NCBI GenBank assembly: GCA_011316305.1
Contig: SAUG01000012.1
Span: 558,001-622,000 of the forward strand
Direction of reading: 5' to 3'
Length of the DNA stretch: 64,000 nucleotides
Source: Rusavskia elegans
Taxonomy: Eukaryota; Ascomycota; Lecanoromycetes; Teloschistales; Teloschistaceae
Positions 4,594 through 25,613 of this stretch are shown here, piece after piece. Under the pieces are notes generated by a model. The model did no database searches. It saw nothing but the letters and a program-made list of their open reading frames with translations, and was not told where the DNA came from. Position numbers and translations under genes: made by a program. Position 1 is the stretch's first letter. The number at the start of each line of letters is the position of its first letter.

Positions 4594-5888
4594 TATCGTT
4601 GTGACCGCACAGCGGATTGATGAATTGGCAGATGGAAGGTCATCCTCCGGAGGTTTCGCTTCGTCGTTCCCTCAACAACAGTTGGTGTCGTGCGGTTGAA
4701 GGGGTGCGTCGTAAGCTCTAAAGGATACTTTCAGAACAGTGTTGTGGTTCTTTGTGTCGATTGTTTCCGTTTCAAGCTGAGGGTGTTAAGGACGTGGCAT
4801 TGTAGCCGAGAGGCTCCGCTCCCTCTCGTACTCCGTAGCCGCCGTAAGCCAAGACGTAAGATCAGGCGCAGTGAAGGCAGCGCTGCGAAGCTGACGCATC
4901 CTGCAACAATCATTTACTCGTTACTTTACGTAACCATGGTTGACAGCGCTCCGATGAATGAGTTCAAACTCTCTCAGCGGACGAAGGTGAGCAGAAAAAA
5001 GGCTCTATGGCTTTCTGAAGGTACCTCCGCGTCTGGGCCAATCAAAATCAACCCTTTGTAGAACAATCATCAAGCTCTCTTGCCGTAAGCTTTTTTAAAC
5101 CGGCTTCAACGGTAAATCGTCTTAATCTCTCAAATTGACATACTGCTGCAGCACTATCTCTGTCGAACTATATCGAGACGGGAACCAGCAAGAGGCTCAT
5201 ATGCGACGACGAGGCCATATGTCATCATGAAGACCAAAGTTTGAGGAGGTTTCTGCAATGAGGACAAAAAATGCAACATCTTCGGGGAGAATTTCCTAGC
5301 GAGTCGATGCAACCGCCGCCACCGCGTGCTTTTTGGGCTGCTCCAACGTTCTGGTCTGAACGTTGGCCACTGAAGCGAGCCGCACCATTCATCTTGATCA
5401 TCATGGGACTCGTGTGGTGTTGCTGAAAAGAACCGTTCCTCGACGCATTGACACAAACATAACGAAACACTACTGAGAGGATAGCCCATGCATATACGCT
5501 TCCTTATTGGTCCCAAAGCGCTAACAGCTTTATCAGGTAAGATTCACGTCAATATCATGCCGTCTCAGGTCAAAAGCAGATTCTCCACGTTACCAGTGAC
5601 ATACCAGGATACTCAAGGATCCTCAGCTAACCGAGCAAGCTGGCTGTCCAGAAGCATGCGCTTACAGAGTCATGTGTCAATGCTTGTGGAAAACCGATTC
5701 GATCTCTCCACATACACCATGAACTATGTGCGCTTTCCGCTCAAGGCGCACTTGCGCGCAGCCGCCAATCTCCAGCCTTCGACAGAGTTCAATAATGCCA
5801 GAGGAATGGACACCTTAACTATCCGGCCCTTCCTGATGTCCCAGACGGAAGATGTCATTCTAAGTACAAGATTGAAAACGCTATCAAG
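4594..5888. other. Intergenic, 1.3 kb, no convincing gene
   Basis: Only short overlapping frames without recognisable domains or coding-like continuity are present on either strand. The region serves as 5' flank for both the PAP2 phosphatase (-) and the secreted M35-like gene (+). Confidence 0.5.
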
Positions 5889-6725
5889 ATGCTCGTACGA
5901 CAAGCTGCCCAAAATTTCCTCGCTCTTTTCCTTGTCACAGTACTTTTTCAAACCACGTATGCACTCCCAACAGAACTTTTGGACTTTGGAGAAGTTCCGG
6001 AATTAGATAAACGCCAAGGTCCAACCAGAAGTGGCATCCAAATCGAAACGGGAGCATGCTCTGGTCGACAGCTGGAGACCATACGGAATGCCGTCCAGGA
6101 CGCCAGCTATCTAGCCGCTGCCGGCCTCAACGCAGCCTCCAATTTTCGACAGGTCCCCTTCACCTATTTCTTCAAGAGTGATCTCAACACCGCCAAAGAT
6201 GTCGGCGCCGTCCTCCAGAGAGTCATTGACGCCCAGAAGGGCTTAGGTGATCCAATCTACGTTACATGCCAGGACCGTTACGAAAAGTGCGGCCCTACCA
6301 ACGCCGGATACACGGCGCAATTCCTCAAGGAACCTGCGGGTTCTCCTGAGAGCTCTCCCATTATCGTCTTTTGCCCCGTCGGGCTGTCCCTGAAGAGAAA
6401 TCCAAGGCCCTGCGACGCCAGAGCCGGAGCTATTTCCCTCGGCTGGTTGATGTTGCATCAGATGGTGATTGTGAAATCGATAGCAGGACCGACTTGGCCC
6501 ATTATTGATATGCCAGGGTCGGAGATGGCCAGCGAGGTTCGAGGGAAGCTCGTATACGATGAAGATACTACGAAGCTGGCCGACGCGTATGCGCACCTCG
6601 GCAGCTGGAGTTATGATCTTGGACTGGGTTATGAGCCGTGGCATCAGGACAAGAATTGCTTGGACAAATTTTGGGTTGGGCAATTTACTCTGAGAGGTCT
6701 TGATGCTACTAATCCGGCTTCGTAG
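5889..6725 (+). CDS. Secreted M35-like (deuterolysin/aspzincin) protein lacking the zinc site
   Basis: Single-exon 278-aa protein from the ATG at 5889. Residues 1-25 form a signal peptide (hydrophobic core FLALFLVTVLF, cleavage near YALP), followed by a dibasic KR at about 41-42 that resembles a Kex2 pro-site. The body has the layout of fungal lysine-specific/M35-like metallopeptidases: paired Cys, a C-x(n)-C segment before the active-site helix, and a LADAYAHLGSW block after it. At the place where the HExxH helix should be, the sequence reads LMLHQMVIVKS (about 188-198), so the catalytic Glu and the second zinc His are missing. I infer a secreted pseudo-enzyme or a binding protein. Family assignment rests on overall pattern, so it is moderate. 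Confidence 0.6.
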   Translation: MLVRQAAQNFLALFLVTVLFQTTYALPTELLDFGEVPELDKRQGPTRSGIQIETGACSGRQLETIRNAVQDASYLAAAGLNAASNFRQVPFTYFFKSDLNTAKDVGAVLQRVIDAQKGLGDPIYVTCQDRYEKCGPTNAGYTAQFLKEPAGSPESSPIIVFCPVGLSLKRNPRPCDARAGAISLGWLMLHQMVIVKSIAGPTWPIIDMPGSEMASEVRGKLVYDEDTTKLADAYAHLGSWSYDLGLGYEPWHQDKNCLDKFWVGQFTLRGLDATNPAS

Positions 6726-9988: not shown

Positions 9989-11534
9989 ATGGCACCAATC
10001 GCTGTTAATGGAACAGCTAATCAGCCCAATGGGTCGGCATTGAAGGCCACAGCGCCCTCGTTCCATCCTACCGGCACTCCAGACCCGTCCAAATACCATG
10101 CCAGCTCAACAGAGGAGGCCATTCACAGCGAGCACACGCATGCTGCGCACAATTACCACCCACTTCCGATAGTCTTTGCCAGAGCCGCCGGAACATCCGT
10201 CTGGGACCCCGAGGGCAAGGAGTACCTAGATTTCCTGAGCGCCTACAGCGCCGTCAATCAAGGTCACTGCCACCCAGAACTCGTGAAGGCGTTGACAGAG
10301 CAAGCCTCGAGATTGACGCTTAGCTCTAGAGCCTTCTACAACGATGTCTTTCCTCGCTTTGCCGAGTTCGTCACCAAATTCTTTGGCTTTGATATGGTAT
10401 TGCCTATGAACACGGGAGCGGAGGCTGTTGAGACTGCCGTCAAGATTGCCAGGAAATGGGGCTACAAAGTCAAAGGCATCCCGCAAAATAAGGCTCTCGT
10501 CATGAGCGTCGCGGAGAACTTCCATGGCCGGACGGTAGTGCACTCTGATCTCATATGACATGCTTGATGGCTGACATATGGTAAAGTTTTCCGCCATTTC
10601 AATGTCCACTGATCCGGAATCCCGCGACAACTATGGTCCATATCTCCCCAACATTGGCTCTTCATGCCCCCATACGAAAGAACCTCTTCCATATAACGAC
10701 ATTGATGCTCTGCGCTCGGCTCTCGAAGCCCATGGTCCAAAGACGGCTGCCTTCCTCGTTGAGCCTATTCAAGGAGAAGCCGGTATCGTCGTTCCGTCTG
10801 AGGATTATCTAAGAGGAGTCCGGGCTCTCTGCGACAAGCACAATGTCTTGCTTATCTGCGATGAGATCCAAACAGGCATCGCTCGAACAGGCAAGATGCT
10901 CTGCCATGAATGGAGCGGGATTAAGCCAGACCTAGTCCTACTTGGTAAAGCCATTTCAGGGGGCATGTATCCCGTTTCCTGCGTACTTGGGTCGAAAGAC
11001 ATCATGCTCACCATTGAACCTGGGACTCATGGTTCAACGTATGGCGGCAACCCACTGGGCTGTGCTGTGGCGATTCGAGCCCTTGAGATCATTCGTGATG
11101 AGAACATGGTTGAGCGAGCTGAGTGTCTTGGGAAGCTGCTCCGGCAAAGTCTCTCAGAGGTCCAAAGTCCCATGCTTAAGCTCGTCCGCGGAAAGGGTCT
11201 CTTGAATGCCATCGTGATCGATGAAACCAAGACTGGCGGCCATAGCGCCTGGGATCTGTGCATGCTGATGAAGGAGAAAGGATTGCTGGTAGGAAGGGCC
11301 TTGAAGATAGCCCATGTCAAGAAGAACGGGGATGCTGATGATTTGAAGGCGAAACCGACCCATCAGAATATTATACGATTGGCGCCGCCGCTGGTGATCA
11401 CGGAGGAGGAGATACAGAAGGCCGTTGGGATTATTGACAGTGCCATGAAGGAATTGCCTGGGCTGAAAGGTGAAAAGGAGCATAGGATCATACCTTCAGA
11501 GGAGAAGAATGTGAAGCCGACGTTGGACAATTGA
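9989..11534 (+). CDS. CAR2: Ornithine aminotransferase
   Basis: Three exons: 9989-10534, 10587-11288 and 11349-11534, giving 477 aa. PLP fold type I aminotransferase: [27 protein letters not shown], the cofactor-binding [12 protein letters not shown] (about 275-287), the Schiff-base lysine in [14 protein letters not shown] (about 300-312) and [10 protein letters not shown]. Known role: converts ornithine plus 2-oxoglutarate to glutamate semialdehyde plus glutamate in arginine catabolism. The second intron (11289-11348) is exactly 60 nt with no stop, so the unspliced frame also reads through; removal restores the family sequence GLLAKPTHQN. The N-terminal about 45 residues precede the conserved core and are variable. 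Confidence 0.92.
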
Positions 11535-11692
11535 GCTTCAGACACACCCCTCTTCGATCAAGCGTGGAAGATCAAAATTGGATTTTTTATAAATATTCTC
11601 ACGTGCTTGAAGCTACATCGGGAAACATGCAGAGAGGGGGAACGAAGCTCTAGAATACAGAGTACAGTCAAGAATTGCATAGCTTTTTATTA

Positions 11693-12817
11693 TTATAATT
11701 TTTTCTGCCGTTTCACAGCGAGAGTCCTCCCAATCCTAGGCCGCGGGTCTGACTGAATCGCTCTGCTGTATCCAGTACGAGTATCCGCGTATATTCTCCA
11801 CTGCTCTATAATACCTCTATATAGACGGCAGTAGTCAGGGCGGTAAGCTATAAGCCTCAGGTCTACTTTCGCCCACCGTCTCCCTAGCTCCTCTGTACTC
11901 CAATCTGACGGAGCCCATAAAACGCCAGCCTTCGTCCATTGTGGGATACTTTCTCCAATAAGGAGCGTGAATTTGACGTCTCTGAACAAATCCACAAAAG
12001 GCTGGTAGGATTCGAAAATGACGGACAACCCTTCGATCCCATATACTACCAGAACGACCTCTATATCGCCCTTTCCATACTTGAACTCCCGAATGATTCC
12101 ATTAAGGTCATTTTCCGAACCGTCCATCTCTAGAGGCATCGGCAGGTTACCTGGACGCCCAATCCAGACTAAACGGCGGTATGTCGCATCGTCCAGGTTC
12201 GCCAGAAGTTGTCCCCAGCGCAGAGCTTGTTCGATCTCTGCTACCTCGTCTTTGCTCTTCTGGCCACGCGTTTGCCCGACGACTCCACTAAAGCGGGAGA
12301 TGAGTATTACCAGTTTGCTAGCTCCTGTTACCTGGATTTGCGGCAGACGAGTATCAATCCCGAGTGCTGTACGGCTTTGTTCCCGCCATTGAGCCTCTTG
12401 GATAGCGGGTTTGAGCTCCTCCGCGCTGAGTCTCCTCGTCTTCCCGGCGTGCCTACCCATTACCGTGACGAACAAGAGGCGGGCGTTTTGTTGAAGCTGG
12501 TGTAGCTCTTTTTTCTGGGTCGCGGTTCGCTTTATGGTGTTGATTAGGACTAACGGGCGGGTATTTATAACGGCGGTCCCCTGGGTATAGGCGATAAGTT
12601 CATCGACTAATCTTTGTTTGCTGCTTATATTACGAGAAGTTGACTTGATTCGAAGTCGTCCGCTTTTATCGAATAGCTCACGAGTAGTGAACGACATAAG
12701 ATTCTGACCTTCGTATCTTATTTTCCCGAGTATCTCTAGATTATCGAACCTTGAGGGTAAAGGGATATCGCTCTTCGCAAATCGTTTGCAGAAAGTATGC
12801 TTGCGAGATGCATCCAT
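11693..12817 (-). CDS. Downstream 374-codon ORF in frame with the C48-like protease gene
   Basis: ATG at 12817, 374 aa, no family recognised. Read backwards past its ATG, the frame stays open for 30 more codons until the TAG that ends the protease ORF (12910-12908), so both ORFs are one frame split by a single stop. The bridging stretch reads FQAFGLLSLKDLREIATKHR and continues into RKHTFCKRFAKSDIP, a pattern resembling a SAP-type DNA-binding motif (short amphipathic helices with spaced leucines and basic residues); this is a weak impression. The rest is a mixed alpha/beta-like sequence with several WG/WK blocks and a basic tail ending in KRQKKL. Either it is the C-terminal half of a protein of about 1140 residues, or an independent ORF. 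Confidence 0.55.
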   Translation of the reverse strand: MDASRKHTFCKRFAKSDIPLPSRFDNLEILGKIRYEGQNLMSFTTRELFDKSGRLRIKSTSRNISSKQRLVDELIAYTQGTAVINTRPLVLINTIKRTATQKKELHQLQQNARLLFVTVMGRHAGKTRRLSAEELKPAIQEAQWREQSRTALGIDTRLPQIQVTGASKLVILISRFSGVVGQTRGQKSKDEVAEIEQALRWGQLLANLDDATYRRLVWIGRPGNLPMPLEMDGSENDLNGIIREFKYGKGDIEVVLVVYGIEGLSVIFESYQPFVDLFRDVKFTLLIGESIPQWTKAGVLWAPSDWSTEELGRRWAKVDLRLIAYRPDYCRLYRGIIEQWRIYADTRTGYSRAIQSDPRPRIGRTLAVKRQKKL

Positions 12818-12907
12818 CGATATAGTAGGAATGCGATGTTTGGTCGCTATTTCCCGCAGGTCTTTAAGACTGAGTAGGCCGAAGGCTTGGAAACGTTGAA
12901 AGACCGT

Positions 12908-15118
12908 CTATCTATCATTACCCAATGGCTGCGTTATAATAGACTTTGTACGGGACTCGATTTGGTCGCCCGCGTCCTCGTTGTTGTCGGCGCCGTCATT
13001 GTCGTCATTGTCGTCTTCGTCATCTTCGTCCTGGTCCTCGTCGTCGTCGACTCCACTGTCCTCCGAAGGCTCAATATCAGAGACGGTAGCCTTCCTTTTA
13101 GCTATACGGGCAACGACAGGTGCCTCGTCTTCAATCTGAGCAGAATCCTCAAAGCCAGGAAGTCTCGCTACGAGCTTTCGTACCCGTCCAGTCCGTCGAG
13201 GTTCGGGCTGGCCGAGCGACGACTCCGAGGCTATGGGAGTGGCTGTGGAGGGAGCAATAGTGGTGTTGTTGGCGGCGGCGGCGGCGGCGGTAGTGGTGGT
13301 GGTGGTGGTGGTGGCGGTGGGATTGGAGAGATTGGCGGCGGAGGCTTCGACGGCGGAGGCTTCAATGGTCGCCTCGACGATTTCCCGATCGATATAATCT
13401 CTAAACAGTTGATCATCCATCCGGGATGTGTTCGCCTGTAGGATCTTTGCCAGATCGCTGTCAACGTCCGGTTGTTGGCCCCGTAAGATAACCCACTTGT
13501 GAGCCACAAGCCAGGCTTCGATATCCCTGGCGGAAGCATCGCCGGCCATTGCCCTGTCCATCAGTTGCCTTGCACTCCGATAGAAATTCTTATTATCGTT
13601 ATCTTCCATTTCAGGATCGACGTCCAATCCTAGGATATCCGCCCACGCATTAAAGACGACGTGAGTGCCGCAGGTATTCATCCACCCCTGTCGTGAACCT
13701 TCGATAAAGGATTCCTTATCCCACTGGGGAATAGTAGAGCCCATCCAGCCGGAGTGTCGAACGATATTCCGGACAATTCTCCTCACGACGCCTCTCGAAG
13801 CGTCATAGCCTTTACCGGAACGATAGTCAAGGCTATTATAGAACTTGAGACTGATATTGGCAGCCTTCCTCGTAGCAACTGCAAGGATCCAATGGCCGAT
13901 CTTGCCAATCCACTCTTGCCGGGTCTCGGGCTTCTTTTTAGGCCCCTGCTCCTTGTCCTTAGGTTGCTCTTGAAGGACTGGCGCTGGTGGGAAAAAATTG
14001 CCCTGACGATCTTCGCTTCCACAGTCTGGAGCAACATACTCAACACCGCTTGTATTGAGCATTATAGGGATCACCATCTTGTTTGGGCGGGTGACACATG
14101 GAATGCCGTGGGTATTGTTAATTCGGGCCCACATTTGTATATTTTGGGGCATAACACCAATATTGATACCCTCTTGAGCAATGCCGGCAGTGAGGGCAGC
14201 GATCGAAGCACAGACTACGTCACCCTCGAGGTTTGCGAGGTATGTCTCTTCTGGCTTGGTTTTGAAACCGCCAGTGACCAAGTCTTCATTCGGCAGATGC
14301 CTGTCGCTGTTGTTGGCCACTGCTGAGTCCTTTTCGAACGGGAGCAAAGTATTTTCCCAATCCAGCATGCTATTATCAAAGAGGTTACCGCCAAACTCCT
14401 CGTCGTCGATATCGGGGACGTTAGTCGGCGGACCCTCTTCTTCCACCGCCTCTGGTTGAAGGCTTGCGTTGGCGTTATCTAGCTGACCGGCGTCGGATTT
14501 TGCCGCAGAACTGACTCGCCGAACGATTGTGACGGCGTCTGCTGTTTTGATAACTTCGGTCCAGTCGATATTATCGTTACTGTCGATGTCCGAGGCGGCT
14601 TTTGCTTTCCGTAGCTGCTGAGCCTTGATGCGAGCTACTTCGACATACTCTTGTGCCTTGTTGAGTCTTGACAAGAGATGCTCAGACTTGACCTCTTCGG
14701 CTGTGAGCTGTCTGGAAGCCGTGTCGATATCCGTAGCCATCCTTGAGAGATTCTCGGCAGACTCATGACACCAAAAAGTCTCGTCCTCTCGCTCTTTGAG
14801 GATCCTCAGTGTTTCCCGGGCTTGCCGGACCAATTGCCGTGACAGATTGTAGCTACCCTGTAGCTTGATAGCAGCTTGCTCTCTCTTCGTAGGACCAGGC
14901 GTCGAAGATGCCGGGCTTTGTCTAGGAGCGGCCTTGGGTTTTGATGCCTTGGCTGCCTTTTCCGTAGCCCTCTTGTCGGCCTTCAACTGCTCGAAGTGTT
15001 CAACGAGGGCAAGATAGCTTTGACGAGCTTCGACATCGCCAGGGTTGTCTTCAACAAACTTCTTTTCCCGTGCCAATCGCTTTGCAGTACCTTTGACGCC
15101 TTCTGGTGCCCTTGTCAT
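12908..15118 (-). CDS. C48/Ulp1-like cysteine protease domain protein
   Basis: Uninterrupted 736-aa ORF from an ATG at 15118. Residues 1-200 are charged and helical (coiled-coil-like, with Lys/Ala-rich linker). The protease-like core spans about 295-500: NLEGDVVCASIAALTAG (like the LND-x-VIN helix of Ulp1), GHWILAV with His409, FYNSLDY with Asn428 where Ulp1 has the catalytic Asp, then RQGWMNTCGTHVVFNAW with Gln477 and Cys483. Known C48 enzymes use His-Asp-Gln-Cys to cleave SUMO-like conjugates. The C-terminal part has poly-Thr/poly-Ala (about 602-616) and long Asp/Glu tracts (about 690-720). Function is inferred; an active protease is plausible but the Asp-to-Asn change is notable. It shares its promoter element with the two genes at 18.5-25.2 kb. 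Confidence 0.6.
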   Translation of the reverse strand: MTRAPEGVKGTAKRLAREKKFVEDNPGDVEARQSYLALVEHFEQLKADKRATEKAAKASKPKAAPRQSPASSTPGPTKREQAAIKLQGSYNLSRQLVRQARETLRILKEREDETFWCHESAENLSRMATDIDTASRQLTAEEVKSEHLLSRLNKAQEYVEVARIKAQQLRKAKAASDIDSNDNIDWTEVIKTADAVTIVRRVSSAAKSDAGQLDNANASLQPEAVEEEGPPTNVPDIDDEEFGGNLFDNSMLDWENTLLPFEKDSAVANNSDRHLPNEDLVTGGFKTKPEETYLANLEGDVVCASIAALTAGIAQEGINIGVMPQNIQMWARINNTHGIPCVTRPNKMVIPIMLNTSGVEYVAPDCGSEDRQGNFFPPAPVLQEQPKDKEQGPKKKPETRQEWIGKIGHWILAVATRKAANISLKFYNSLDYRSGKGYDASRGVVRRIVRNIVRHSGWMGSTIPQWDKESFIEGSRQGWMNTCGTHVVFNAWADILGLDVDPEMEDNDNKNFYRSARQLMDRAMAGDASARDIEAWLVAHKWVILRGQQPDVDSDLAKILQANTSRMDDQLFRDYIDREIVEATIEASAVEASAANLSNPTATTTTTTTTAAAAAANNTTIAPSTATPIASESSLGQPEPRRTGRVRKLVARLPGFEDSAQIEDEAPVVARIAKRKATVSDIEPSEDSGVDDDEDQDEDDEDDNDDNDGADNNEDAGDQIESRTKSIITQPLGNDR
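13264..13325. repeat. GGC/GGT trinucleotide tract inside the protease ORF
   Basis: Runs of GGC and GGT on the + strand encode, on the - strand, the poly-Ala and poly-Thr stretch at about residues 602-616 of the C48-like protein. Length variation here would change the protein without shifting the frame. Confidence 0.7.
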
Positions 15119-15684
15119 TTTGGCTTGAATGCGAGAGCTGACGCCGAGGAGAAGCCTTGTACGGAGAAGAAAGACTCGGTAAAGAGGGTTGATAGGGAAT
15201 AGTGGATAGGATGAGGAGGATAGGAAGGGAAAGTGTGAGGATTCTGTACTTGACTAAATCCGCAGAGGGAGTGGGGAAGGATTGTCCGGGCTCGTACTTG
15301 ACTTGCCTAGCATGGAAGATGCAATGCTCAGCGATCGATCGGAATCTCACACATCATACTCATTGCATGGAGAAGGAAAAGAAGAGTCGAGGTGCGAGGC
15401 ACTTGGTCAAGTAAAGATTTCTCACTAGCGTGTTTTACGGAACCTCGTTCCTTCCAACCTAACTCCAGACACAGTAAAGAGAGTACGTACAGATCCTCAA
15501 TCATACTTGCCGACTGCATTGACCATTCATTGATCAGTGCCTTGGAGGTTCATACGTCTACACTGTTGCGTTGGAGCTCATCTATGATCGTCAAGCCATG
15601 TGGTAGTCTCCTACACGCTTTCCAGCTCCAGTCTGTCTATCCTTATCCAGGCCGAGAGATCGATGCTTCCGCCCGATTTGAGGG
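15119..15684. other. 5' flank of the C48-like gene
   Basis: It contains promoter element copy 1 and CT-rich tracts (in gene sense) between the element and the ATG. No gene is visible between this flank and the minisatellite. Confidence 0.5.
15246..15263 (-). promoter_or_regulatory. Shared island promoter element, copy 1 (C48-like protease gene)
   Basis: In the sense of the gene it reads GCGGATTTAGTCAAGTAC, followed two bases later by AATCC. It ends 127 bp before the ATG at 15118. A second half-copy (GTACTTGACT on the + strand) lies 40 bp further upstream, at 15294-15303. Copies 2 and 3 lie upstream of the acidic-protein gene and the helicase gene, in the same relative orientation. Confidence 0.65.
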
Positions 15685-16622
15685 TTCCTGGCCAATTCGA
15701 CGACTCCCGGCTCGAGCTTCTTCACAGTCGCATCGATGCCTTGGATACAATTCGACGATTCCGGGCTCGAGCTTCTTCACAGTTGCATCGATGCCTTAGA
15801 TACAATTCGACGATTCCGGGCTGAAAGCTTCCTCGCAGTTGCTTCGACGCTTTGGACACCATTCAACGACTCCCGGCTCGAGCTTCTTTACAGTTGCATC
15901 GATGCCTTGGACACCATTCAACGACTCCCGGCTCGAGCTTCTTTACAGTTGCATCGATGCCTTGGACACCATTCAACGACTCCCGGCTCGAGCTTCTTTA
16001 CAGTTGCATCGATGCCTTGGACACCATTCAACGACTCCCGGCTCGAGCTTCTTTACAGTTGCATCGATGCCTTGGACACCATTCAACGACTCCCGGCTCG
16101 AGCTTCTTTACAGTTGCATCGATGCCTTGGACACCATTCAACGACTCCCGGCTCGAGCTTCTTTACAGTTGCATCGATGCCTTGGACACCATTCAACGAC
16201 TCCCGGCTCGAGCTTCTTTACAGTTGCATCGATGCCTTGGACACCATTCAACGACTCCCGGCTCGAGCTTCTTTACAGTTGCATCGATGCCTTGGACACC
16301 ATTCAACGACTCCCGGCTCGAGCTTCTTTACAGTTGCATCGATGCCTTGGACACCATTCAACGACTCCCGGCTCGAGCTTCTTTACAGTTGCATCGATGC
16401 CTTGGACACCATTCAACGACTCCCGGCTCGAGCTTCTTTACAGTTGCATCGATGCCTTGGACACCATTCAACGACTCCCGGCTCGAGCTTCTTTACAGTT
16501 GCATCGATGCCTTGGACACCATTCAACGACTCCCGGCTCGAGCTTCTTCATAGTCGCATCGATGCCTTGGACACCATTCAACGACTCCCGGCTCGAGCTT
16601 CTTCATAGTCGCATCGATGCCT
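15685..16622. repeat. Minisatellite, 55-bp unit, about 17 copies
   Basis: The unit contains CCATTCAACGACTCCCGGCT, then CGAGCTTCTTTACAGTTGC and ATCGATGCCTTGGACA. Units starting at 15905, 15960, 16015 and so on every 55 bp to 16565 are identical or nearly so; the first three or four units (15685-15850) and the last two show substitutions (for instance ATTCGACGATTCCGG and TTCATAGTCGC). Because 55 is one more than a multiple of 3, the three + strand frames all stay open over the array and give apparent proteins of 233-290 aa; these are artefacts of the repeat. The homogeneous centre with diverged edges is typical of unequal exchange. Confidence 0.95.
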
Positions 16623-17688
16623 CTGGATGAACAGGGTGGGGTACGTCCATTGGGAACTTGGTCGGGTGTAGTGACGAGACACCTTCGCTCGTGGTCAGCC
16701 TATTCAAAAGTGGAGTGCCTTGGACGCTGCGAGTACTGACCTGATAAGTTCACAGAGCTTTAGTCTTTTAAGGTCTCAAAGTTCGTGTCGTTCCTGGACT
16801 AATAACAGTGCAGCAGCAGTACTCCTTGGTCCCGACCGTTCGACTACTTTGCCCCGCTGACTTTCCAGATGGCGTCGCAGTGTTCGAGTACAGAACATCT
16901 CGAACGCGGCAATACGCCGTATGTTCACGAATATATTGGACGATGAACCTAACAATCGCCATAATAAGCCCTCGATCTCATAATCAAATCTTTTCGCCTC
17001 CTCTTCAACCTTCCAAGCTGTGCGAGGACGACCATTCCAATCGATGTGACTCGGAGAGGCATTCGCTGCCTCTTGAAGGCGACAGTCGCGTCGGAAGTTG
17101 CGGTTGGGGGATGCAGTAGGTCGGAATCCGCACTTTCCCTTGTCAAGAGATCGGCGGTTATAGGATGGTGGCAAGAGTTGAAAGAGTCTACGGAGGTCTT
17201 CAGAGCAAGAATACTTGGTTGTGGTCTGAGTATACTTCAAGGCTAATATGCAGGTAACCTTGGGTGACAGATTTTTAGTGTCAGTGCACGTCCCTCATTT
17301 ATGCAGATCTTCGACGTCTCGTCTGAACAATCACAACCACAGCACAGTTCTACGCCTCCGATTCAATCCTATACCAGGCTATATGGTCCCTCAGAAATCT
17401 CCTTACTCTATCGAGTAACTTCCTCTTCGATAAGCTGGGGTGCTTGCTATTTAGGTTGCTCCTTCGAAGTAGTAGGTTGTCCTTGATTAAGGTGGCCGGT
17501 TGGACCTGGAAGCGACGCGAAATCGGTACTTTGTTTACGGAGGACTATTCTGTATAGTTCGGCAATACTACCGTACTGCAGTAGCACAGAGGTTCGTTTT
17601 TTCTTTTCAGGGTCGATACTCAAGAGAGGTCGGCTATTTACTATCCTGAACCCAGGCTTCTATCGTTGCAACAGGACCGGAAGGACTA
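16623..17688. other. Island spacer, no convincing gene
   Basis: Short frames occur on both strands, but none has a recognisable domain or splice-linked continuation. On the - strand, about 17470-17580, a stretch reads LQYGSIAELYRIVLRKQS and ends in a stop; it may be a decayed exon, but I could not link it to any family. Confidence 0.4.
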
Positions 17689-18447
17689 GCATGTTGCATA
17701 CCACTGGTGGATAATCCTCCTCCATGGATCTATATCTTCCTCCATGGATGACACTGCCATCGATGGAGGTACCCCATAGAGGAATCCACCAGCGAAGGTA
17801 CCTCCATCGATAGATAGAGGTGCCCTATCCATGGAGGGTGCACCTTCCTGGATAGATGACGTCAAGTGGTAAGGTTTTTCTTCGTACACTTATTCATTCT
17901 ACAGTACTACATAACTAATTACTCCTTAGCCTTACGCCTCTGCCTCTGCTGCCTCGTACGCGGAGGTTCAAGCTCCCTATCATCTATATCGTCATCGTCG
18001 CTGTCGCCGTCGCCGCCTTCCCCAGCGCTTCTACCGCCTGCAATCTCCTCCTCAGGGACCCAAGTCCATCCCTTGGCCTTTCTACCTACCTATTTCGCTC
18101 CCTCCGCAATTCGTCGACGTTTGGCCTGGGCCTTTTCTTCGCGGGAGGAAGGAATGAAGGAAGGTAGAAAGAACGGGGGGAGGCAGGAATCATAAGAAAA
18201 ATGGGGCAAGAGGGGAAGGAGAAGCACCGTGGTGTCATCCATCGACGGCGTGGTTTTATCTATCGATGGCGTGCTTCTTCTACGGATCGCGGCGGTCTCA
18301 TTGGTAGATTCATCCATGGGGCGCCTCCATCGACGGCGGCGTCATCTATGGAAGAAGACCTACCTCCACCGGCGAAGATACGCCATCTATCGAGGGGGGT
18401 GTTGTTCCATGGATGAGGAAATCCACCCCTGGTGTGCAACAAGCATC
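17689..18447. mobile_element. Element with imperfect terminal inverted repeats, about 760 bp
   Basis: The left end begins GCATGTTGCATACCACTGG (17689) and the right end, read on the other strand from 18446, begins GCTTGTTGCACACCAGGGG; both continue into TGGAT(A/T)...CCTC(C/A)TCCATGGA, so the inverted similarity covers about 40 bp. Inside each arm, variants of CCATCGATGGAGG recur many times in both orientations. The interior (about 17928-18135, - strand) encodes a basic segment EEKAQAKRRRIAEGAK, a TAG, then a W-x-W segment with an acidic run and the tail QQRQRRKAKE. There is no full transposase, so this would be a non-autonomous or decayed element. I could not identify a target-site duplication. 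Confidence 0.5.
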
Positions 18448-18532
18448 GGCCACCGGGCCAACGAACTATACCCAATTCTTTGCCTTTACTGATGCTTCAA
18501 GCTTGTTCGGCTGGATACTATTAGGCAGGTAT

Positions 18533-20466
18533 CTACTCTAACCGTGGCTTCTTCTGGGTCTTGCGTAACTCTATTTCTCGATCTAGCGCCTGGCGTACCC
18601 CGCGCGCTTTTAACAACGCCAACTTTGCAGCAGTAACCTGCTTCTCCAATTCTTTAACAGCTGTATTCTTCAGCTCCTCTTCAGCTACGGCCGCAACCCT
18701 CTCGGCTTCAAGGTCCTCATCGGCCTTATTTTCATACTTCCTCTTATCTCCAAGCGAAGGAGTCGATGGAGGGAGGACGGGTGCTGGCCCGGTAGAACGG
18801 AAAGTAAATTTCGTATCTTCCGGAATTGTGAACTCAGCAGCCTTCTGCTGTAACTCATTTCTATAAATTATTAGCCAGCTGATCTCCGATGTGTATAGTG
18901 GATTTACCCTTTAGCACAGAACTTCCATTCGACCGTCGTCACGGGTCCATCTGACGTTGAGGGTCTCCTCTCAAGCTACAGTAGATTTCGGAGTCAGCAT
19001 ACAATACAACCATTTTAGGAATATAATTGATATCCGATCGACGAGTCGATCGAAGTCTAGAATGCCTAGCTCGCGAGCGACGGTTCCAACGTCAAGTTGG
19101 ATTGGGGTAAGGAAGCTTCGGGAACTACTTACCGTGAACGCCCTTAGAAGATCCTTTATCCTCCCTGCAATAACATCCAGTGATGCGGTGAAGTCTTCCT
19201 CTGGCCTTTGGTGGACGAATTCTTGGCCAGCGAGAAAACGGATTACGACTGGCCAGGCCCACCCATATTGACTTGTACGGGAGGAGCTCGAATGTTTCTT
19301 GAATGTCGTTGGAGCATCTCTGGTCTTCTTATGCGCAAGTCGAATCTCGCGTCCAACGGAGGCAGCGGCGCTTTCTTTATTAAAGACTTTTGCTAACGGG
19401 AATGTGGCCGGGTCCTGCAACGGAAAATAAGTGATGTTTCTTTTGAAGGATTGGCTCGGATATTCATACCTCGCCAGCTTCCTCGTCATCATCCTCGTCT
19501 GCATCCTCGTCATCATCCTCGTCTGCTTCCTCGTCATCATCCTTGTCTGCATCCTCCTCTGCATCCTCGTCTGCATCCTCCTCTGCATCCTCCTCTGCAT
19601 CGCCCGCCACTCCACCATCCTCATGACTACTTTGATCGCCAGCCTCATCAGCTGGCTCTGGTGGGGCGACCTCGTCCAAACTGCGCGGTGGTCTCATGGT
19701 AGACTCCCGGATCACTGGAAGGCATTCGGGAGGGCCACGGCACTTGAATCGTACAGCGCAATACCTTTCTGTGAATTCCACACCCGCTGCGGTCTTGACC
19801 AGCACTGTAGTCTCGCTTACGAAGATATCTGAAATATCTTTGAAGGTCACTTTCCATTGGTATTGTCCTGGCAGCTCTGGATACTCTCCTGGACTCCTTC
19901 CGTCATAGCGGCGATGAAATTGACCGACTTCGATGGCTAAAGGTCCCAGTATAAGTCAGTTATTCTTCGATAGTAACGAGTGCTATTATATCGTTAATAC
20001 TTACATCCTTGTCGAAAGTAGACCTGCTCAACGTTCGAAGGTTCTCGGTGAGCCTCTTTATCAATCTTCGCAGAGATCCAGCTCTCCTCTAAGTGTATCC
20101 ACTCTAGGTCGGAACTATTACGGTACTGTTCCATGTTTCGTAGAGATTAGCTTTCAGTGCCAGTATAGGTAGAGATACGATATTGCATGTACCTGCAACC
20201 GAGCAACGTTCAACCGGTTATGTCGTCGCTCGCGACGATTGCTCCACCTTGTTTTCTCTATATCTATCAGCGTGTATGTTCGCGTTCAGATATTGAAGAT
20301 AGGAGCAGCAGAATATTTGCCGTTCGGGTAAGTACTTACCTGAAACCACAGCTGGTACTGCGGGCGGAGCGGGCAGAGCTGGCGGAGCGGGCGGGAGTGG
20401 GTTGACTACCACACTTGGGCGAGGTGGGAGTGGGTGACGAAGGGGAAGGGAGGGGGATAGTGGCAT
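18533..20466 (-). CDS. Island acidic/Pro-rich protein, 7 exons, unknown function
   Basis: Exons 20466-20340, 20263-20193, 20125-20005, 19936-19470, 19414-19133, 18975-18908 and 18860-18533; 1464 nt, 487 aa, all phases consistent. Residues 1-42 are Pro/Ala-rich. Residues about 60-160 form a compact-looking part (SSDLEWIHLEESWISAKIDK, GQYQWKVTFKDISDIF, VEFTERYCAVRFKC). An Asp/Glu/Ala-rich tract follows, then FGWAWPVV-like and DLLRAFT blocks, a VTTVEWKFCAKG block and a C-terminal coiled coil (ERVAAVAEEELKNTAVKEL). No family is recognised. The intron 19132-18976 (157 nt) is longer than the others and may hide another exon. It is divergent from the helicase gene, with matching promoter elements. 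Confidence 0.6.
19477..19612. repeat. GAY-rich acidic codon repeat
   Basis: Short imperfect repeats of TCGTCATCATCC and TCGTCTGCATCC on the + strand encode the Asp/Glu/Ala run of the acidic protein on the - strand. Confidence 0.7.
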
Positions 20467-20549
20467 TGTAGGCCAGTGAATCTCGAAGGCAGAGAGTATA
20501 AGAAGGTAAGGGGATTATAGAGAGAGGAGGTATGATAATTAGGGATTTT

Positions 20550-20567
20550 GTACAAGACTCAATCCGC
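20550..20567 (-). promoter_or_regulatory. Shared island promoter element, copy 2 (acidic-protein gene)
   Basis: In gene sense it reads GCGGATTGAGTCTTGTAC, then two bases and AATCC, ending 83 bp before the ATG at 20466. Confidence 0.65.
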
Positions 20568-20791
20568 AAGGGGGTAGGGTAAGGGAGAAGCAGACACTAG
20601 TTCAGCTTCGCAGGGGGAGGGTTGCAAGAGTAGGAGGAGGAAGAAGAAGAAGAAGATTTTCATAATCACGCGCGCGTTACGTCTCATTCACTTCAGTTTC
20701 CTAGTGTTGCCGGTTAAGGTTAGCCGATTCCGAAACGCACAAATGTTATATTGCCAGGATCGAAACCTTCCTTTTCTCTTTCCTTACCCCA

Positions 20792-20809
20792 GCGGATTGA
20801 GTCTCGTAC
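20792..20809 (+). promoter_or_regulatory. Shared island promoter element, copy 3 (helicase gene)
   Basis: It reads GCGGATTGAGTCTCGTAC, then two bases and AATCC, ending 95 bp before the ATG at 20905. It is preceded by TTACCCCA, comparable to the C-rich stretch before copies 1 and 2. Confidence 0.65.
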
Positions 20810-20904
20810 CGAATCCTAAAACCCATCACCTCTCCCCCTAGCGAAGCGTAACTCGTGTACACTTCCTACCTCTTCCCTATCTCTCTCTCCCCCTACCCTC
20901 CAAG

Positions 20905-23900
20905 ATGGCGCCCAAACCTGCTGCTAAGCCTGCTGCGAAGAAGGCTGCGAAGAAGTCTCCCGCCTCTGTGCCGCCCGACAAGTATACGGCAAAGCACTGC
21001 AGTCTGTCCTTTATCGCCAAGGGAACGCAGGACTGGATCCCGCTGGCGAAAGCCGCAGGTTCATCCTACCCTGGGGATAGCAATGTCGGTATCGTGGAGG
21101 TAACGTTTCCTTCGCATCTCCTTTACCCTACTCCGACTTGAAATTGGAGCTACCACTGGCAAGCCAGGTATCTGATATAACAAATACTAACGTCGATATA
21201 TACTGCAGTTCAAGCATACGATCCACGTAAGTTTCTTTGGATTGCTTCTGCTATTATCAAAGACGCCCGTGGTAACATAATAACACAGATCACTCAGAAG
21301 GGGACGGGTGGTCAATGTACGCTGGATTTGGTAAATACACCTCCTTGGATAAATTCATTATTCCACGTCTTAATATCACTTTTCCTTAGTCAACTGCCCA
21401 GTATGACGATCCTAAAGTTTCGGCGGGGAAGAAGGCCACGGACCCTATTATAGTAAGTTCCTTTAGGCTGCTATTACTCAACTATAGTGAAACCTGATAT
21501 AACAGGTCGAAGTGGCTATTAAGGGTGAGGAGCCTGCGATTCGTTTCGAGCCGGCCGAATCGGAAGAAGCTCGGGGTCTGCCGCTCGCCATACAATATAA
21601 GGGCTTCGGACGTATCCTGTTCTCGATCAAGCCTATGCACCTTGCGCAACAAGGTGGAACTAAGACCGAAGTCTTGGGAGAGATGGTCGCGTTTTTGAGG
21701 GTCCTTTTGACCGGTCGCGAGCTGCTTGACGTGAGTAATTACTCTGAACCGAAACGTTCAAGGACTGATAAAAGTTTGCTGGCAGCCAAGTAATCGGTGG
21801 GCACGGCTCTTTGATGTAAGCCCTGCAGATATTTACTGCGTTGTATCCGTTTTAAGAATGATCAATACTGATTGACCTACAGAATGACCACAAGGCTGGC
21901 GAACTCGAAGCAGTTTCGCAAAAGGCACAGCTTGGTACCTTTGCAGGCTGTCGAATCAAAACCAGCCTTAACTGGTCAGAGAAAAGCCTCGTGGTTCATG
22001 TCTGGTTCCCGTCCGTCGACAAGTCTGCTGCCGCCAAGGACGAAGAAGAAGATGTGCTGGACGCTATCGAAGAGGTTTCGGCTTCGAAGATTGGGCAATC
22101 TGTTTGGCTGAACGCTCCGACTCTGTTCCCGGCCGACAAACAGACGCTCGATGATCATTGCATCTTGGGCGCGCCTGAAACGAACGGCTGGCTACTGTGG
22201 CTCGACAAAATCCAAGCCTCTGATGAATCTAGTCCCGATCTCTCAGGGACTATCAGCAACTCGTTCCGTATTGGGGATATCCACAAGTTCATCGGCGAGG
22301 AAGATAACGTCGAGCTGCTCCCCAATTTCGTTGACGTCGCTGCTCAGCGTTTGACTGACGCCCAGACGGAATTCGGCAAAAGCCTGGATGAGCAGACCCG
22401 AGCGCTCCGTGGCTTCTTTGTTGATCCGAAGACATCTGTCCAAAAGCCGCAGATACCTTATGATATGTAAGTGATTTTCAGAACTACTCAACCCTGGCTT
22501 GGAGTCAGAACGGAGATATTAGACAGGATTCCAAGACATCTCTTGTACCCCTGCTACATGACTGTACTGTTGATATGCTGATTATAAGAACTACTGCAGG
22601 CTCTTTGTCGGCGAAAAATGTGACGAACAGGCCAATCGACTACTAGCGGGCGACTCGCAACCGTCGGACAACATCATACAAGTCCTCAATCCCGGTCAAC
22701 GCGATTTCGTCATTATGGCCTTGAGTAATGCCATCAGTGTCTGCCAAGGTCCCCCAGGCACAGGTAAAAGTTGGGCTATCGCTGCATTGATCGCAAGCTT
22801 GGTCGTTGACTACTCCGAGCTGGTTGCAATGGCGGCTTCGAGCAGTAAGTATTGAATCTTTCGCTTCCTAGGCTCCAGATCAACTATATTTTCGTTCAGG
22901 AAAGCTGTTTCAGAGGCTCTGCCAGCGTTGGTCTGCAAATAAACTAACAGGCGTCTCTATTAGACTTCGCCGTGGATAGTCAATTGAAAACGGCCGTCAA
23001 AGTGTGGCTGCAGGTGATTAAGACGCCTCCCCGTTTCACTCGGTGGTATAGCGAAGGTCAGATCCGGTCGCAATGGGCTGCGGGCGACCGGGCGACTCTC
23101 GACGCTCCGTATCACCTGGAGCAGGTGAGATATCAATACGCCCTCGAGAGCCCCTCGGCATGGGGCCAATATTTCGAACTGCGAGAAGAACTTGTGGCGT
23201 ACGGGGTAATTGACAATCCTGAGCGCCTGAAGCTTTACAACAAGGTGGTCAAGCGTTTGACCAAGGAAGTTTTGGATAAGTATATCCAGGTTGTTTTCTG
23301 CACCATCGTCGGCGTAAGTAAACCCCGGAGCGATTCCTCCCTATCTCCTTTGTCTGGTATTTGCGAGATACGCCTGCAGAGTCAATACGGGGTTTATACG
23401 AGTATAAGATCGAGATGTGCTGACTATACTCCAGTCGCACGCCCCCAACTTGACCAAGGATGACAAGAAGAAGGCCAAGCTTCAATTCTTCCCGGCTACA
23501 ACGGTTATATGTGATGAGGCTGGCACCATCTACCGACCTCAGATGATGATGCTCATTATGGCCTTTCGTGATGCAAAGTAAGTAATCTTTGGAGCTACCC
23601 TGCCCCAATGCCGCCCAACTTTGAAGCTGTCACATTTATAGTGTATTGCCTGTATGCTGACTTCGAGACCAACTGCAGGCGCGGCGTTCTTGCTGGTGAT
23701 ATTTTGCAGCTTCCTGGTTATCAAGGTAATAAGATGACCAAGCAGTACTTGCCGGTGTCCTTTATGCAGGACGTGATGACCCGTGGATTCCCTGTGGGCG
23801 AGCTGAACGAGCAATATCGCATGCACGATAAGATTTATGCTCACACGCCTACGGTTATCTACAAGAGGCCAATCGGTTCCCAGAAGAAGACTAGCGATAC

Positions 23901-25222
23901 GTCCATCTTCCGGCAAAAGCTGCTCGCCAGTCCACTTGTTGTCGAAGCACCGGCGCATACGTACCGACTCCGGTCGTTTCTACATTTCGTCGACGTCCCT
24001 GTTGCAACCCAAGAGTACGACGAGAACAGCAGTAGTTTCAACGTAAGTCTATTTTCGAGTTTATTTTTACCCTGTCCTTCTCCAATCCTTTTCCAATCAA
24101 CAATCGAGACATGATTCTAGAGGCTGGAAACACGGTTTTCAAACCCTTTGAACTCCTAATATATATTCTCAGAACTCCTCATCTTACCCGACAAGACGTG
24201 CTAACTTGAGAGTTGACTTTAGTTTGCTGAAGTCGAGGTGATCGAGAGCCTGGTCCTCGCTCTGCTCAAGACTGGTATCGCGCCGAGTGATATCTGCGTG
24301 ATAACCGGTTATCAAGCCCAGAGAAAATTGCTCGCACGAAGGGCCAAAAGAAACGGCTGGAGCGATATCAGATGCATCACGATCGATGCTTCGCAGGGAG
24401 AGCAATGGCCGGTTGTTCTTCTGTCCCTTGTTACCGTTCATGGTTTCCGTAGGTTCTTCTTTATGGATATCTGCTATTCGTCCAATCCTGATTGATACAG
24501 TTGGATTTATGGGGCGAAAGGAGCGGGCGAACGTTGCGACCTCCCGCCAACAGGAAGCCCTCTATATTGTCGGCAAGGCGGATTTTTGGCTGAACGAGCC
24601 GCCAAAGAAATCGTCCAAGAAGTGGATGCATGCCATCATCAAGTTTATGCAAGATGATGCCCTCGCGCAGAATCGCCCTGCTTTCGTCGTTGGACTTGGT
24701 GTCGTTCCGGGTCAAGTAGTCGAGGCATCGAGCTCTACGTGGGTCCTTAAGTCTTACAACGATACAATAGTCCGCTAAGTATTATCCAGTCAAGCAAGAT
24801 CGGCTACGCCGCCCTCTGCTCCTCTGCAGGCATTAGAAATAGCCGATAAGCCTGCTGTATCGACGCCAACGACTCCCGCGCCGCCAACAACCGAGATGTC
24901 GGTGGAGGAGCTAAAGGCGTTAGAAGCCGATAAGCTGGGTCGTCTCAGTGACCAAAATAAAGCCGACTTGGAACGTATAGAGGAGTATATCCTGCAGCTC
25001 GAGGCCGCTGCGAGTCGTGGTACTAATGTGACTACGGAGCTTGCAAAAGCTCGGTTTGACTTCAGAGAAAAGAAGGCCAACGGAAAGAGAGCCTTGGATG
25101 ATCTGAAACGCGATTTCCAGGCGAGGAAAGAAGCTCTGGATATAGCTACTGCGAAACCCGAGGTAGAAGAGGAAGAAGAAAAAGACGGTGGTGGAAGTTT
25201 AGTCTTCGATGAAGATTTCTAG
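20905..25222 (+). CDS. UPF1-like superfamily-1 helicase, 13 exons
   Basis: Exons 20905-21099, 21209-21226 (18 nt), 21289-21330, 21390-21452, 21506-21730, 21883-22466, 22600-22844, 22964-23313, 23435-23577, 23679-24042, 24223-24448, 24501-24715 and 24830-25222; 3063 nt, 1020 aa. Residues 1-400 are an unrecognised N-terminal region starting with Lys/Ala/Pro repeats. Helicase motifs: I QGPPGTGKS (about 425), Ia SSNFAVDSQL, II CDEAG (about 600), III GDILQLPG (about 628), IV NEQYRMH (about 667), V DASQGEQWP (about 799), VI RANVATSR (about 828). All core residues look intact. The last intron is the least certain: without it a TAA at 24776-24778 ends the protein about 20 codons later, yet the downstream coiled-coil tail is in the same frame. 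Substrate and role are unknown. Confidence 0.75.
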
Positions 25223-25613
25223 ATTTTTTGTATCGGTATGGACTTGGTAGAGGCTATGCGCAGTTATATATCTGGTATAACAGAACTACCTGATGTTTGT
25301 AGTAGCCTCTAAGCTGGCCAATTTGCGAATCGGCTCCAATGGCTCCAGAACACGTAAATAGATCTCGGAGAACCCTTGGTGCGATTTTCAGCCCTTCGTT
25401 ACCAGAACAGATCGCAATGGAGACATTCACAAACCATGTCCCCTTTTTATGAGCACAAAGGCATATCTTCGGTCAAATGGACCCTGGTGTCATATTTTGT
25501 TGACCGACGTCATGTGGAGCTTAATGAGTAGGGTACCTTACTCACCAATTGCCGACCAGTAGATCATGTTGTTTCCTTGAACTTTTACTCAGAACCTCGA
25601 TACCAGCTTCGAA
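25223..25613. other. Right flank of the island
   Basis: 391 bp between the helicase stop and the dienelactone hydrolase ATG. It contains an inverted repeat TAGAGGCTA (about 25250-25258) and TAGCCTCTA (about 25303-25311), which can form a hairpin in the helicase 3' untranslated region. No inverted match to the island's left flank (11535-11692) was found by eye. Confidence 0.45.

Follow-up and report, generated by a model that had tools for sequence, protein, structure and literature searches.

A recurrent three-gene unit of Rusavskia elegans carries private promoter motifs that differ between its versions

The 64,000-nucleotide stretch of Rusavskia elegans DNA analysed here (the window) holds a unit of three genes, A and B (minus strand) and C (plus strand), on contig C21 of a 44.16-Mb genome. 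The same gene set turns up at other sites of the genome. Of four distinct versions compared, three have a single motif before all three genes; the exception is the version on contig C194. We regard the unit as probably a dispersed selfish element with a regulatory circuit of its own, in which a factor that it encodes itself would read a private promoter code. Its features, in window coordinates, are as follows.

11612..25226, no strand: whole unit, delimited by a near-identical copy on C43 and C97 (blastn, pairwise alignment of both copies)
11693..12817, minus strand: gene A, second open frame, 374 aa, conserved C-terminal region (ORF, alignments A1 and A3)
12908..15118, minus strand: gene A, first open frame, 736 aa, N-terminal region and C48/Ulp1-like domain (ORF, homologues)
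15239..15263, minus strand: private motif copy of gene A (pattern search of window and genome)
15695..16627, no strand: tandem array upstream of A, 55-bp unit, 16.9 copies (repeat analysis)
18533..20466, minus strand: gene B, acidic protein, 487 aa, 7 exons (own splice model; paralogues on C97, C206 and C194)
20543..20567, minus strand: private motif copy of gene B (pattern search of window and genome)
20792..20816, plus strand: private motif copy of gene C (pattern search of window and genome)
20905..25223, plus strand: gene C, UPF1-like SF1 helicase, 1057 aa, 15 exons (own splice model, Pfam, homologues)

The unit sits downstream of a class-III aminotransferase gene (Pfam Aminotran_3), which a sequence-only reading of this DNA had called CAR2; its other neighbour is the gene that the same reading labelled dienelactone hydrolase. 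B and C diverge from a common 438-bp spacer, and their start codons are those of our own gene models. Both ends of the unit are common to the two copies of the window version; the left end is uncertain by about 10 bp, and the right end falls on the helicase stop codon or up to 3 bp past it. The window copy is free of repeat-induced point mutation (RIP) and has a GC content of 0.506. Between A and B, at window 17714-18379, lies an inverted-repeat element with 101-nt arms, 70% complementary and 464 nt apart, which looks like a nested MITE-type insertion.

Gene A is interrupted by an in-frame TAG at window 12908-12910, downstream of which the frame is open and conserved in relatives; in C206, P0002 and P0003 the C-terminal region runs on unbroken from the first part. 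The TAG may reflect an intron, read-through or a break. A model that removed 36 bases as an intron was rejected because alignment A1 has conserved residues in that stretch. The predicted structure of the middle part, a model of low confidence, gives a tentative match to the CE-clan fold of C48 (Ulp1/SENP) peptidases, and the catalytic His, Gln and Cys are invariant in all five aligned proteins of the family. The catalytic Asp is absent from these five, which differ from known C48 peptidases in carrying Asn (four proteins) or Ser (one) at its position. Oligomerisation- and DNA-binding-like regions were recognised in A by eye; SAP- and Zn-cluster-like patterns, also seen by eye only, had no Pfam support. 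Gene B matched no Pfam family. Gene C matched AAA_12 (E 5e-31) and AAA_11 (E 8.9e-13) and has a UPF1-like SF1 helicase core, with UPF1 as its nearest solved relative by way of homologue P0005, whose top match in a search of solved structures is UPF1 (E 8.9e-22). C differs from UPF1-like helicases in having long extensions at its N- and C-terminus.

The window motif, GCGGATTKAGTCNNGTACNNAATCC, has exactly three matches at ≤3 mismatches in the 44,163,098-bp genome, one before each of A, B and C, and its reversed control pattern has none. All three copies fit the 25-bp pattern with 0 mismatches, and 100 dinucleotide shuffles gave no match. Each copy lies on the sense strand of its gene, with its 3′ end 120 (A), 76 (B) or 88 bp (C) before the ATG. 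The sequence-only reading had described an element shared by the protease, acidic-protein and helicase genes, always in the gene's own sense. The perfect copies 76–120 bp upstream bear this out, as does the genome scan for its claim that the element is specific to these genes: the scan found no other match, and no even spread upstream of unrelated genes, the contrary sign that the reading had named. Two details fared less well. The C-rich stretch placed before the element is present but amounts to general pyrimidine richness, and the GGATT/AATCC inverted pair, although in the sequence, is no more symmetrical than shuffles. For the three window copies 89, 93 and 96 of 400 shuffles were as good, and dyad symmetry was rejected as significant. 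Among the other motifs only that of C206 stands out in this respect (15 of 400 shuffles as good), and the C50 motif has no dyad symmetry at all.

An upstream position and a strand common to three genes are also what an ordinary host transcription-factor site, co-regulating three host genes, would display. We consider such a site highly improbable here, since the 44.16 Mb hold no further match at ≤3 mismatches, the other versions carry different motifs, and a host factor with only three targets, swapped for each version, is hard to credit. Use of the motif genome-wide was rejected on the scans, which place motif matches almost only at the unit's own promoters. The three window promoters share 20 identical columns in their best 25-bp stretch, and this likeness is confined to the motif: pairwise agreement is 21–22 of 25 positions inside it and 15–23 of 60 on either side. 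Promoter duplication was rejected as the source of the motif because the likeness ends at its borders.

Other versions of the unit are present in the same genome. On C206, B and C are divergent at 263.4–268.8 kb, and A is an intact 1182-aa frame (278185–281733) inverted relative to them; less than 110 bp beyond this A lies an M14 carboxypeptidase frame that begins only at profile position 151 of 286. The C194 version has C, B and A. Its A shows no C48 part in readable frames, and its B (L036 615-1397), alone among the B genes, opens with LysM domains (Pfam E 1.7e-17). C50 carries a deeply diverged version, in which the helicase is 27–37% identical over its pieces, an acidic gene is divergent from it and a further gene lies on the minus strand. 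Only the helicase is recognisably homologous; the B- and A-position genes of C50 showed no sequence homology to B and A. Tandem arrays of similar period to that of the window lie upstream of A in other copies (56 bp on C43, 57 bp on C206 and 53/106 bp on C194). C50 is unlike these versions with large arrays upstream of A: its 79-bp array (5.6 copies, L054 5-449) is downstream of the B-position gene. Helicases without identified partners occur on C191 and C213, and fragments of A on C182, C75 and C25. About 7 kb from the C213 helicase is a typical C48-type protease gene (L047 5386-7992, minus strand; NNDVDCGTFILA by eye).

The C206 motif, TGATCTATATCACTCTCGCAAAC, and the C50 motif, AGGGCTCTGTACTCCGATATCCCTCT, differ from each other and from that of the window. 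At ≤3 mismatches all 11 genome matches of the C206 motif are at that version's own promoters (four at A, three at B and four at C), as are six of the seven matches of the C50 motif, two per gene; the reversed patterns of both gave 0 matches. The seventh C50 match is a single copy with 1 mismatch at C181:252015-252040, and no unit gene was found nearby. When the three promoters of a version were compared in a trio test over 25 columns, in which the window's B–C spacer was divided equally between its two genes, the window had 20 identical columns, C206 23, C50 24 and C194 11. Controls fell well short of the first three values, with 10–14 columns for 24 mixed trios drawn from three different versions and ≤15 when any one promoter was flipped. 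C194, with no single motif common to its genes, instead has a separate array at each, of about four 39–43-bp units. The C194 version and the C181 match thus depart from a simple one-motif rule. The A-position gene of C50 had been picked out from its location and appearance, prior to any analysis of its promoter, so the motif found in that promoter is separate evidence that the three genes form a set.

Arrays of three to four copies in C206, the long tandem arrays that several versions have close to A and the helicase encoded by the unit would all suit a different function for the motif. It would then mainly be an iteron-like or subterminal site, bound by the machinery that copies or recombines the unit, and would lie near gene starts by chance. 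This seems unlikely to us on account of the fixed relation to gene starts: the nearest motif copy is always on the sense strand and 36–120 bp before the ATG, the one exception being A of C50 at 250 bp. The sites, moreover, are distributed per gene and not at the unit ends.

Evidence for dispersal comes from a second copy of the window version, with A on C43:1-5187 and B and C on C97 up to 28890. Its GC content is 0.25 (C43) and 0.22 (C97). Over 10,254 aligned columns in three regions its differences from the window comprise 2759 of the C>T or G>A kind, as against 12 transitions in the other direction and 54 transversions; by region (3731, 3717 and 2806 columns) the counts are 1030, 994 and 735, then 1, 8 and 3, then 19, 28 and 7. 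In the last region C>T changes affect 147 of 155 CpA, 84 of 184 CpT, 79 of 167 CpC and 51 of 177 CpG sites. This excess and the CpA preference mark the copy as a once near-identical sequence that was later ruined by RIP-type mutation. Its helicase is split by an AT-rich insert of about 4 kb with an end repeat (L032 2048-6024, on C97), which looks like an LTR retrotransposon; a relative with 77% identity lies beside the C213 helicase (C213:58423-62405).

C43 ends within the tandem array. Its flank encodes the N-terminal part of an MFS transporter (Pfam MFS_1, E 2.2e-36), and the C97 flank has no Pfam name; in paralogues such as those at C92:202329-203993 and on C179 and C26, both flank pieces match one gene, in order and next to each other, the C97 piece corresponding to the C-terminal part. 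C43 and C97 would therefore appear to be the two sides of one insertion, read across an assembly gap. With the halves of an MFS transporter gene on either side of this copy, the unit is a dispersed one that at one time entered a gene. At the left end of the unit, C43 has a stretch of about 120 bp (L034 5187-5305) matching a C73 gene at 96% identity, a junction that looks like break repair. By eye, the window's right flank at about 25330–25380 resembles the next bases of that C73 gene.

The C73-derived stretch at this junction, together with the seeming absence of a middle part of the MFS gene at the insertion, could also point to spread of lineage-specific host genes by segmental duplication or break repair, the motif being a relic of copied promoters and the genes not selfish. 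The lack of a transposase or of clean ends and the variable gene order, with A inverted on C206, fit that account. We judge it improbable, since promoter likeness stops at the motif borders, at 15–23 of 60 positions outside, and since the motif is kept at three genes yet differs between versions. The scattered gene fragments and chimeras also speak against it. A dispersed selfish unit remains our preferred reading, and the recurrence of the gene set and the copy inside the MFS gene uphold that part of the sequence-only proposal of a mobile or selfish unit; a transposase, a terminal repeat and a target duplication were not found to go with them. The M14 frame beside the C206 A, which begins part-way along its profile, and the patchy occurrence of homologues in Xanthorioideae also count in favour of this reading.

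Known classes of mobile element account poorly for the unit. A classical TIR transposon was rejected, as none of the 25 longest of 62 inverted pairs in 11400-25600 joins the ends and no target-site duplication was seen by eye. Pfam scans of the three gene products, and of six ORFs taken from the window and from C206, identified no transposase. A Helitron was rejected, with no HUH Rep domain by Pfam in A, B or C and a helicase that is UPF1-like, not Pif1-type; a Helitron-like hairpin before CTAG at the right end was treated as chance because there is no Rep domain. A Starship was rejected for want of a DUF3435 tyrosine recombinase, and a Maverick/Polinton for want of polymerase B, integrase and packaging ATPase (Pfam, in A, B, C and the ORFs tested); the sole likeness to the latter is that of the C48-like part to the Maverick protease. 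Fungal KDZ and TET/JBP-carrying DNA transposons and Starships are multi-gene mobile DNA, and the TET/JBP elements suggest counter-silencing. The present unit would resemble all of these as multi-gene mobile DNA in fungi but differs from them in that Pfam detected neither a transposase nor a captain recombinase nor a dioxygenase domain in its three genes and the ORFs tested.

How such a unit might work can be outlined as follows. A factor from the unit, most likely A and perhaps with the acidic B, would bind the motif and keep A, B and C expressed despite host silencing. For sites confined to a single version, a protein encoded by that version would be the simplest reader. The candidates are A, for regions that by eye look suited to oligomerisation and DNA binding, and B, for an acidity that it shares with many activators. 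Motif and factor may drift together, which would leave each version self-regulating and unresponsive to the rest. The helicase and the C48-like domain may serve copying, integration or the removal of SUMO-type marks.

Temperate phage immunity groups and the upstream sequences of yeast linear plasmids provide one precedent: each element has one private operator or promoter sequence, and related elements differ. The likeness is that every gene of one element is under one private sequence; the difference is that the fungal genes are nuclear, intron-bearing and eukaryotic, and that the factor is a candidate. The closest parallel is the VANDAL transposon family of Arabidopsis with its VANC anti-silencing proteins. 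Sequence-specific VANC proteins and their targets are reported to evolve together, the targets often lying in tandem repeats (PMC5735166). Both systems have a short, element-specific non-coding motif, often tandem, that differs between related elements (PMC5735166); such a private motif was found in the versions described above, with C194 again the exception. An element-encoded protein that reads the motif and changes with it, as in the VANC case (PMC5735166), would be a further likeness. The fungal unit differs from VANDAL elements in that neither DUF1985 nor a MULE-type transposase (VANA) was found by Pfam in A, B, C and the six ORFs, in having the motif at every gene start, in its other gene families and in its RIP-type mutation.

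The unit has relatives beyond this genome. Homologue searches, which reach relatives sharing short words and scored about 8000 candidates each, gave named homologues of A in Squamulea, Flavoplaca, Xanthoria, Xanthocarpia, Calogaya and Rusavskia, and named close homologues of C in Polycauliona and Flavoplaca; two distant named matches to C are from Serendipita. The seven genera other than Serendipita are Teloschistaceae of the subfamily Xanthorioideae, where presence is patchy, and the best database match to the window A has 46% identity. P0017–P0019, with Rusavskia and Xanthoria among them, are 63–76% identical to the N-terminus of the C206 A, and the C-terminal end of P0019 is that of the C206 B (81 of 148 residues identical). 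On C75 the same two pieces, an A N-terminus and a B C-terminus, adjoin (L044 ~4627-6006). These matches and the C75 fragment indicate that a shortened A–B fusion, which could be a derived regulator, exists in several species. Upstream of the C75 fragment two copies of a further C206-type repeat variant were seen by eye.

A genome that holds several versions, with a different motif in each at matching positions, offers a natural experiment on the joint change of regulator and binding site, and on the expression of selfish elements in a repeat-mutating genome. If a unit protein reads the motif, the versions would supply orthogonal promoter–activator pairs for fungi, and the VANC principle, so far a plant one, would hold in fungi too and for an element without a recognisable transposase. 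More tentatively, the unit may belong to a hitherto undescribed class of selfish element in eukaryotes, in which three genes without a transposase of known kind are under a lineage-specific promoter code that only their own factor reads, several versions sharing one nucleus without cross-regulation in the manner of phage immunity groups. Were that so, the chimeras of Rusavskia and Xanthoria that join the N-terminus of A to the C-terminus of B, and the C75 fragment with them, would be candidate regulators derived from the unit.
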